Positions 3,155 through 7,821 of a stretch of 54,813 nt of DNA are shown here, one piece after another. The position numbers and the translations under genes were made by a program. The DNA is from Bdellovibrionia bacterium. GTDB lineage: Bacteria > Bdellovibrionota > Bdellovibrionia > Bdellovibrionales > UBA1609. The notes under the pieces are model-generated. The model was not told the origin of the DNA. It did no database searches and was given only the letters and a program-made list of their open reading frames with translations. Positions within the stretch are counted from its first letter, which is position 1; every line of letters begins with the position of its first letter. The stretch is from contig JAUILT010000006.1 of NCBI GenBank assembly GCA_030432925.1, forward strand, positions 1-54,813. The letters run 5' to 3'.

Positions 3155-3291
3155 ATGCGATATGCCATAAAGATATGCGGCGCATCTTCTCATGACTAAT
3201 CGCATAAAATTGATGTGAGGAGGCCGGGGAGTCTCATTTTTTTTAAAAATTTTGTTCAATTATCTTCAGCACAAGACGCGTAGCGTTTTAA

Positions 3292-3329
3292 AAACCTAGA
3301 CCAAAGGCCTAAAGAAACCTAGACCAAAG
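3292..3329 (+). repeat. Tandem direct repeat at the flagellin 2 promoter
   Basis: The 15-base unit AAACCTAGACCAAAG occurs at 3292-3306 and 3315-3329, a period of 23 bases or about two helical turns. The second copy runs through the promoter spacer. This could be an activator or repressor site; the core GACCAA(A)G recurs upstream of motA. Confidence 0.6.
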
Positions 3330-3336
3330 CCGAGAG
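3310..3336 (+). promoter_or_regulatory. Sigma-28 type promoter of flagellin 2
   Basis: TAAAGAAA (3310-3317), 11 bases, then GCCGAGAG (3329-3336). Spacing and the GCCGA core match FliA promoters. It predicts a start near 3343 and a leader of about 260 bases. Confidence 0.65.
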
Positions 3337-3342
3337 GTTACC

Positions 3343-3601
3343 TGAACACGTTGGAGCACCTTTTGGCGTGGGATTCATTTCGGCAGTCACCAAAATGTTT
3401 CCTGCTTTCCATTTCTCCGAAGATGTAAAGAGGGTCAGTCACCCCTCTTGATCTTCGGACTCCAACAAAAAAAGAGTTTTTGTTAAACAGACAGAATGTC
3501 CTTGTCTTGGGAATCCAATTTGCCTGGAAAAACTGTGGGCAGATCCCCAAGGTCTTGCACCCGTGCAACAGGAGTTTGCACAAGCACGTTGGAGGCTACA
3601 A
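3343..3601 (+). promoter_or_regulatory. Long structured 5' leader of flagellin 2 (possible RNA switch)
   Basis: No plausible gene lies in this 259-base leader. At its 5' end is TGAACACGTTGGAGCA (3343-3358). Its CACGTTGGAG core is repeated at 3585-3594, where the GGAGG is the flagellin 2 Shine-Dalgarno. Between them, 3416-3459 forms a long hairpin with outer stem TCCGAAGAT/ATCTTCGGA and inner stem AAGAGGG/CCCTCTT. It is followed immediately by CTCCAAC (3460-3466), which is complementary to GTTGGAG in both copies. The anti-Shine-Dalgarno can therefore pair either with the 5' decoy or with the real ribosome binding site. Confidence 0.5.
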
Positions 3602-6733: not shown

Positions 6734-6760
6734 TCAAGTCCACCTCGACCTCGCCGAAGG
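6734..6760 (+). promoter_or_regulatory. Sigma-28 type promoter of flagellin 3
   Basis: TCAAGTCC (6734-6741), 11 bases, GCCGAAGG (6753-6760). It is homologous over its length to the flagellin 4 promoter (shared GACCTCGCCGA). The leader would be about 220 bases. Confidence 0.6.
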
Positions 6761-6767
6761 GTGAGTT

Positions 6768-6987
6768 GCAAGCAGCAGTAAAATTCTACTGAAAGAATAA
6801 GAGAGCCAGAGTTGAGTGACTGCTTCTTTGGTTTTATGAAGCTTCTTTCAAAAGACCTTCCTGTTGCTCCAACGTGTTCAACAAAGCGCAAGGATGCTTT
6901 GCGATCAGCTTGTAGCCCTGTGGGTAGGGCTCGGGCTGGTGGGAAACCCAGAAAAAGGACTCCCGTCATAAAAAAAGGAGGACTCTA
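6768..6987 (+). promoter_or_regulatory. Long 5' leader of flagellin 3 with trans-complementary segment
   Basis: The leader contains TGCTCCAACGTGTTCA (6865-6880), the exact reverse complement of 3343-3358 at the start of the flagellin 2 leader. Ten of those bases are also complementary to the flagellin 2 ribosome binding site (3585-3594). Further short hairpins can be read: CAAAGC/GCTTTG at about 6882-6901 and AGCCC/GGGCT at about 6915-6932. The Shine-Dalgarno AAAGGAGG follows shortly before the ATG. A minus-strand frame across this region has no support as a gene. Confidence 0.45.
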
Positions 6988-7821
6988 ATGAGCCTTACTA
7001 TCACTACAAATGTAGCCTCACTGGCTGCACAAAAAACCATGGGTACTAACGCCCGCAATATACAAAAAAGCATGGCCCAGCTTTCTTCGGGAAGCCGGAT
7101 CACGAAAGCAGCAGATGATGCTGCTGGGCTCTCTATTAGTGAAACTTTAAAGTCCACGGTAAGAGGTTATACTCAGGCCAAGCGAAATGCCAACGACGGA
7201 ATCTCTATGGTTCAGGTGGCAGAAGGCGGGTTGAGTGAAATTAGTAATATTTTGACTCGCCTCAGAGAGCTTGGTGTGCAAGCAGCTTCTGATACGGTGG
7301 GCGACCTTGAACGAGAGTTTATTAACAAAGAGGTTCAGCAACTGATCAACGAGTCTGAAAGAATTTCGCAGGCGACACGATTTGGAACAACAGTTCTTCT
7401 TGATGGCAGTGGCGATACCTTTGATTTTCAAATTGATATTAATAACGATGATTTTGTAGACAGAATCTCCTTTGATGCCAGTCAACAGGATGCGACGACA
7501 GCTAATCTTGGTATTGATGGTTTCGACTATTCTGATAAAGGCAGCGCTCGAGAGGCTTTAGAGGTGTTAGAGGATGCACAACGGCAAGTGAATGGCTACA
7601 GAGCCAACTTGGGTGCGATTCAAAACCGATTGATCTCCACGTCTGAAAACTTGAGTGTAGCCGTAGAGAACTTCTCGGCAGCCAATAGTCGGATTCGTGA
7701 TACAGATATTGCTGAGTCCAGTGCTCATCTGGCGACAGCACAGATCCTGAACCAGGCTTCAGTGGGAGTATTGACCCAGGCGAATGCTCAGCCACAGGCA
7801 GCGTTGAGGCTGATTGGCTAA
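6988..7821 (+). CDS. fliC: Flagellin 3
   Basis: Filament subunit of 277 residues (MSLTITTNVASLAAQKTM) with an AAAGGAGG Shine-Dalgarno. It has the D1 hallmark ITKAADDAAGLSISETLKS and the C-terminal helix ILNQASVGVLTQANAQPQ. It is very similar to flagellin 4 in length and along its whole sequence, including the shared central INNDDF/INNNDF, DRISFDASQQ and LEDAQRQVNGYRANLGAIQ. The two genes also share promoter and 3' hairpin sequences, so they are a recent tandem duplication. Its own sigma-28 promoter and long leader suggest independent control of its share in the filament. Confidence 0.95.
   Translation: MSLTITTNVASLAAQKTMGTNARNIQKSMAQLSSGSRITKAADDAAGLSISETLKSTVRGYTQAKRNANDGISMVQVAEGGLSEISNILTRLRELGVQAASDTVGDLEREFINKEVQQLINESERISQATRFGTTVLLDGSGDTFDFQIDINNDDFVDRISFDASQQDATTANLGIDGFDYSDKGSAREALEVLEDAQRQVNGYRANLGAIQNRLISTSENLSVAVENFSAANSRIRDTDIAESSAHLATAQILNQASVGVLTQANAQPQAALRLIG

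Follow-up and report, generated by a model that had tools for sequence, protein, structure and literature searches.

In translational riboswitches the 3' strand of helix P1 can itself be the anti-Shine-Dalgarno sequence. Kissing-loop antisense pairs are known from CopA/CopT and Sok/hok, and the rare cases of mRNA-mRNA pairing or of leaders acting in trans include SreA-prfA in Listeria and irvA-gbpC in S. mutans. Most of the known trans-acting RNAs of bacteria are dedicated small RNAs. For flagellins, the leader of Campylobacter jejuni flaA is part of a dual-function mRNA of the CsrA-FliW network; it is 45 nt long and titrates protein through GGA loops (PMC4894983).

The locus described here lies in a contig of 54,813 nucleotides from a Bdellovibrionia bacterium of the order Bdellovibrionales; the whole stretch is called the window. 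Like a translational riboswitch, the leader of its flagellin gene fla2 is predicted to form a 5' domain of several helices, the closing helix of which would form first during transcription and exchange a strand with the ribosome site. Unlike the riboswitches, it has no indicated small-molecule ligand and no Rfam match (the window has none at the gathering threshold, the leader no meaningful one at a relaxed threshold), and its conserved loops and 5' strand have their complement in another mRNA. With C. jejuni flaA it shares that it is a flagellin leader with a sigma-28 promoter and conserved hairpins in a bacterium encoding both CsrA and FliW, and it may likewise act beyond its own translation. 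It differs from flaA in its length of about 250 nt, its three-way junction and its complementarity to a second flagellin mRNA. The loop-loop contact proposed between fla2 and fla3, followed by a longer duplex, resembles CopA/CopT and Sok/hok, and one leader acting on another mRNA would resemble SreA-prfA and irvA-gbpC. In contrast to these four systems, the two partners here are the leaders of separately encoded structural genes that are paralogues, and the pairing is kept, with covariation, throughout an order.

Two mRNAs that code for paralogous structural proteins appear to read each other via their leaders, with order-wide covariation in both the kissing loop and the long strand. For APsRNA3, an orphan among the attack-phase small RNAs of the most studied predatory bacterium, this provides a homology, a candidate target and an anatomy, and the question of how bacteria with several flagellins order their filament subunits becomes testable.

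The fla2 leader and its junction

The features of the locus are collected in Table 1. Genome G004 was identified as Bdellovibrio bacteriovorus HD100; the published merRNA coordinates contain a c-di-GMP-I riboswitch, and the fla2 orthologue contains the sites of the published fliC1 RT-PCR primers at 562,157 and 562,615.

Table 1. Coordinates of the flagellin genes, promoters and leader elements in the window
Feature	Position	Strand	Basis or remark
FliA (sigma-28) type promoter of the fla2/fliC1 leader, TAAA-N15-GCCGAGAG	3310..3336	+	Pattern search
5' end of the fla2 leader, TGAACACGTTGGAGCA; holds the P1 5' strand and the putative target of the fla3 leader	3343..3358	+	16-nt perfect complement of 6865-6880
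P1 5' strand, GTTGGAG	3350..3356	+	Covariation of the closing helix
P2 hairpin, 8-nt loop GCAGTCAC, CAGTCAC at 3384-3390	3376..3397	+
P3 hairpin, 8-nt loop TCAGTCAC, CAGTCAC at 3436-3442; best-supported candidate kissing loop	3416..3459	+	Loop covaries with the partner loop
P1 3' strand, CTCCAAC, the anti-Shine-Dalgarno	3460..3466	+	Covaries with the 5' strand order-wide and with the Shine-Dalgarno in the window's family
Small hairpin GACAGAATGTC at the position of the GGA-loop (CsrA-like) hairpin of relatives; GGA lost here	3490..3500	+
Shine-Dalgarno region of fla2, CACGTTGGAGG	3585..3595	+	Complementary over 10 nt to 6867-6876 of the fla3 leader
fla2, fliC1 orthologue, 274 aa	3602..4426	+	HD100 orthologue matches published fliC1 RT-PCR primers
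FliA-type promoter of the fla3 leader, TCAAG...GCCGAAG	6734..6759	+	Same element in the listed partner leaders
GTGACTG, complementary to the loops of P2 and P3; located in a fla3-leader hairpin	6816..6822	+
TGCTCCAACGTGTTCA in the fla3 leader	6865..6880	+	Perfect complement of 3343-3358
fla3, fliC2-type flagellin; leader with the pairing segments	6988..7821	+

A first-pass annotation had pointed to an exact repeat of CACGTTGGAG at 3347-3356 and 3585-3594, to CTCCAAC as the exact complement of the GTTGGAG in both copies, and to the hairpin at 3416-3459. These observations are confirmed, the arms of the hairpin being 18 nt long and 78% complementary. When 3343-3601 was shuffled 2,000 times with its dinucleotides kept, 4.7% of the shuffles had a 10-mer repeat, 5.6% a 7-nt triple of the A/anti-A/A type, and 0.3% both together. 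The annotation also had the predicted transcript begin at the segment with the first copy of the repeat. The published start of APsRNA3 in HD100 (561,854) is the equivalent of window position 3348, which places the start of the fla2 leader upstream of 3360. A FliA-type pattern, TAAA-N15-GCCGA, spans 3310-3333 ahead of the leader, and homologues have a FliA-type promoter at an equal distance from the fliC1 leader.

The same leader is present in relatives of the fla2 flagellin. A covariance model built from eight sequences, and later refined with 23, was used to search whole genomes belonging to the order and the class; it matched in 48/141 genomes at first and in 70/144 after refinement. In these blind searches nearly every inspected match was located directly upstream of a fla2/fliC1 orthologue. 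When genomes of the class and phylum were added, the junction gave only two borderline matches beyond the order (E 0.05-0.08), which is the level of chance. Judged by this distribution, the fla2 leader is a conserved, uncatalogued RNA across the Bdellovibrionales.

By covariation the leader is a three-way junction, with P1 (GTTGGAG:CTCCAAC) closing the hairpins P2 and P3. In 49 sequences two-sided changes were found in 33/35 pairs of the junction, including 11/11 pairs in P3. The cells of the junction were paired in 82.8% of the cases compared to 63.4% after shuffling (0/500), and a shift of the structure by one column made the score collapse. P1 occurs in the variants GTTGAAG/CTTCAAC, ATTGGAG/CTCCAAT, GTTGGGA/TCCCAAC and GTTGGTA/TACCAAC. 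The leader thus has the conserved, aptamer-like structure with covariation that would be expected of a translational riboswitch. The P2 and P3 loops are both NCAGUCAC, i.e., CAGUCA(C). CAGTCAC is found in the P3 loop of 40/45 listed homologues, and CAGTCA at the start of the P2 loop in 38/45. Leaders that have lost one of the loops keep the other: genomes G070 and G133 keep P2, while Bdellovibrio and G069 keep P3.

Some other properties of the leader were considered as well. Internal kissing between the two loops was rejected because CAGUCAC is not self-complementary. A likeness of the 5' end to the 3' end of 16S rRNA was judged coincidental, since the CACCUCC part is not conserved. The hairpin motif GGGNCAGTCACCCC does not define a regulon elsewhere in the genomes; its matches are mostly at the fliC1 leader. 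The leader of G132 (L063) is a natural minimal form where P2 and P3 are absent, while P1 (GTTGGAG...CTCTCCAAC) and a complementary Shine-Dalgarno are kept within about 60 nt. The fliC1 leaders of Bdellovibrio (L127-L140) display a second conserved stretch, ACGTTGNNGG...GGTAAGTGGTGCGACC, between the 3' strand of P1 and the Shine-Dalgarno; the window's family lacks this stretch.

Complementarity to a second flagellin leader

A weak antisense match of the covariance model at 6797-6878 led to the leader of fla3. The complement of the fla2 5' end at 6865-6880 is the only such match of at least 12 nt in the window besides the leader itself. Within it, CTCCAACGTG (6867-6876) is an exact complement of the repeated 10-mer and hence also of the Shine-Dalgarno copy, a third match that the first-pass annotation had missed. 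The annotation regarded 3350-3356 as a decoy for the anti-Shine-Dalgarno. This segment does pair with 3460-3466, but the description is incomplete, as the same segment also appears to be the binding site of the fla3 leader; this relation to a second flagellin's leader is more striking and better conserved than the cis switch.

The 15-mer GAACAYGTTGGAGCA has 11 extra copies in the genomes. Eight of these are found within another flagellin's leader in antisense orientation, about 75-125 nt ahead of an ORF start of that flagellin and with GTGACTG 46-74 nt further upstream. The other three (two in G128 and one in G137) lack both a kissing motif and a flagellin gene, and their number is close to the approximately 1.6 copies expected by chance in 140 genomes. 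Leaders of the fla3/fla4 type were fetched from 52 genomes in eight families; G115 and G038, with no such leader in the fetched region, were excluded. A conserved complementary partner, as would be expected for a trans-acting base-pairing RNA, was found in all of them, the partner leader complementing the fliC1 5' end of its own genome in 52/52. The mean pairing energy was -24.0 kcal/mol for own and -18.8 kcal/mol (sd 0.44) for swapped partners (0/20,000 permutations); this and the other permutation tests treat genomes as independent and do not fully correct for relatedness, while the compensatory changes are independent across families.

Compensatory changes in the partner were found in the strand as well as in the loop, as for a trans-acting RNA with kissing loops. 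The strand pairs are GAACGCGTTGAAGCACTTG/CAAGTGTTTCAACGCGTTC, AGACACATTGGAGCA/TGCTCCAATGTGTCT, TTACTTGTTGG/CCAACAAGTAA, AATACGTT/AACGTATT and GTACACGTTGG/CCAACGTGTAC, and in G101 the complement extends over 20 bp. CAGTCAC is accompanied by GTGACTG in 41/41 consensus genomes as called, and in 42 after correction of G135, where the automatic call had picked a downstream CTGTCAC instead of the true P3 loop, TCAGTCAC. CAATCAC is found with GTGATTG in the HD100 clade and again in G101, which belongs to a different family, CTGTCAC with GTGACAG in G037, and CGTCAC with GTGACG in G001. The variant kissing motifs are absent from all the consensus genomes. The motif is unpaired in the local fold of 38/49 partner leaders, and the pattern of changes indicates that the loop covaries independently of the 5' strand. 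Taken as a relation between sequences, the trans pairing of the two flagellin leaders is well supported.

The gene at 564,214 of HD100, whose leader is the partner there, was identified as fliC2. In the window, the leader of fla4 (8271) also complements the 5' end of fla2, but more weakly (-17.7 kcal/mol), and the relative G127 contains more than one strongly complementary flagellin leader, so that several partners may exist in one genome.

The Shine-Dalgarno region and the order of flagellins

In the first-pass annotation the leader was proposed to be bistable, the anti-Shine-Dalgarno being captured either by the 5' copy (ON) or by the Shine-Dalgarno itself (OFF), with RNA folding and covariation of the three segments as the way to check it. 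The ON helix is real, in that 3350-3356 and 3460-3466 covary throughout the order as the closing helix of the junction. When the leaders are truncated, its probability is about 0.9 in almost all homologues and above 0.5 in 59/63, all structure probabilities given here being from thermodynamic models that do not include kissing loops. Folding of successive prefixes gives P1 at approximately 0.9-1.0 in most leaders until the Shine-Dalgarno emerges.

The OFF pairing is supported in the window's family but not as a general property. Among 23 leaders of this family (one of them from a neighbouring family), the anti-Shine-Dalgarno binds its own Shine-Dalgarno with -13.3 kcal/mol compared to -11.2 kcal/mol for swapped ones (0/20,000 permutations), and 12/15 genera go in the right direction (Wilcoxon p=0.015). 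It also fits the Shine-Dalgarno of its own fliC1 better than that of fla1 (p=0.002). Once the Shine-Dalgarno is made, the anti-Shine-Dalgarno is predicted to pair with it at 0.6-0.96 in 11/13 leaders, and the two pairings are near iso-energetic. Outside the family, own pairings do not beat swapped ones (p=0.15) and the full-length leader flips in only 3/44 cases. The covariation of 3460-3466 with the Shine-Dalgarno and the predicted flip are thus found in the window's family and are mostly absent elsewhere. The Shine-Dalgarno match is kept even where the match to the 5' copy is broken in G117 (CCTCCTA/TAGGAGG) and G094 (GCCCC/GGGGC), while in other lineages the reverse is seen. The bistable reading is thus partly supported, being right for the window and its family and not for the order.

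A switch working in cis only, where the decision is left to folding kinetics or to some protein or ligand on the junction and the match to fla3 is incidental, would agree with the two near iso-energetic pairings, with the covariation in the window's family and with the riboswitch-like anatomy. It is nevertheless improbable, as it leaves the covarying partner complements of all 52 genomes and the covariation of the loops unexplained, and as conservation of the OFF pairing is confined to the family.

The comparison of sequences supports the junction, the covarying complementarity in trans and, in the window's family, the covariation between the anti-Shine-Dalgarno and the Shine-Dalgarno. A reading that is given a slightly better than even chance of being right is that the fla3 leader kisses the fliC1 leader and captures its 5' strand, and that the released anti-Shine-Dalgarno shuts off fliC1. 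The fla2 leader would be a riboswitch-like three-way junction with a regulator that is probably another mRNA. During transcription the 5' strand GAACACGUUGGAGCA would pair with CUCCAAC and close the junction, leaving the ribosome site free. GUGACUG, located in a hairpin of the FliA-driven leader of fla3 (fliC2-type), might kiss the CAGUCAC loop(s), and UGCUCCAACGUGUUC of fla3 would then pair with the fliC1 5' strand. This capture would open P1 and release CUCCAAC, which in the window's family could cover the fliC1 Shine-Dalgarno and turn off FliC1 synthesis. As the mRNA of the second flagellin accumulates, the shut-off of FliC1 would amount to a handover between successive filament subunits.

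Cofolding of the two leaders of the window gives a gain of 21.1 kcal/mol over the separate folds. With the first 12 nt captured, as compared to P1 formed, the predicted accessibility of the Shine-Dalgarno goes from 0.47 to 0.07 (mean of 21 leaders from the window's family). From sequence and folding models we infer that the two RNAs would meet in the cell, with the above order of events and direction of effect. The arm pairing with the Shine-Dalgarno is found in the family only while the trans pairing is order-wide, so the effect in Bdellovibrio must be a different one, for instance on RNA decay, processing or fliC2. Both leaders have FliA promoters and are thus probably made at the same time, which counts against the proposed handover. 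A handover would, on the other hand, make sense in B. bacteriovorus, where FliC1 precedes FliC2 along the filament (PMC2791853). The wider idea of an mRNA-to-mRNA assembly clock throughout the Bdellovibrionales, with the second flagellin leader as the RNA 'ligand' that turns off the first gene and thereby has the subunits produced in filament order, is put forward tentatively, its chance being somewhat below even.

APsRNA3, CsrA and the promoter region

APsRNA3 of HD100 (561,854-561,981) is 128 nt long and has a FliA promoter (Karunker et al. 2013, PMC3627812). It is 191-fold up in the attack phase and was described as having no homologues elsewhere and no target (PMC3627812). Its ends enclose the fliC1 leader junction, the 3' end being just past it. 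Judged by its coordinates, the 'orphan' APsRNA3 is the fliC1 leader junction, with homologues throughout the order and a candidate partner. The published 5' end is about 5 nt inside the stretch complementary to the partner leader; either the start is processed or the complement is partly untranscribed.

That APsRNA3 was detected on its own in the attack phase, as an RNA of 128 nt with its end just past the junction, is what would be expected if the pairing mainly affects stability or location: a double-strand RNase could cut the duplex, the two mRNAs could be tied together for co-ordinated translation or decay, or APsRNA3 could act on fliC2. Duplexes of 12-20 bp, and a trans pairing that is order-wide while the Shine-Dalgarno arm is not, point in the same direction. 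The explanation is still rather unlikely, since pure decay models have no need for the selected anti-Shine-Dalgarno:Shine-Dalgarno arm in the window's family.

P1 begins about 2 nt past the mapped start of APsRNA3, which would suit a junction that only protects the 5' end while CsrA-FliW is the main regulator, CsrA binding a GGA-loop hairpin and the Shine-Dalgarno region as in Bacillus hag and Campylobacter flaA. As in control of the hag/flaA type, csrA and fliW are present (22/22 and 21/22 flagellated genomes, respectively) and located near each other. GGA is found in the Shine-Dalgarno of fla2, and 14/22 relatives have a GGA-loop hairpin past the junction compared to 3.4 in shuffles. This loop is, however, lost in the window's genus and present in few Bdellovibrio leaders, and the trans covariation would be left unexplained; CsrA-FliW as the main regulator is thus highly improbable. 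CsrA is compatible with trans pairing, and the presence of both genes and of the hairpin in relatives suggests that a CsrA layer may coexist with it. Control of the FlbT type known from Caulobacter was rejected, as flbT was found in 0/22 genomes while the Caulobacter control was positive.

APsRNA4 (562,984-563,081 in HD100; PMC3627812; L125) starts just past the fliC1 stop codon, and for this reason looks like the 3' UTR of the fliC1 mRNA rather than an independent small RNA.

The promoter region contains several repeated elements. Nearly all the listed fliC1 promoters share an imperfect palindrome, GACGCNNNGCGT (3275-3290 in the window), which precedes the transcript start by about 60-70 nt and is a possible operator or architectural site. 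AAACCTAGACCAAAG is repeated exactly at 3292-3306 and 3315-3329, with a spacing of 23 nt. CTAGACC is found in the spacer of the FliA promoter and again one period upstream in homologues. Palindromes of ATGCGGCGCAT are located at 1684-1695, at an ORF starting at 1670, and at 3175-3186, upstream of the fliC1 promoter, and similar half-sites are found in relatives.
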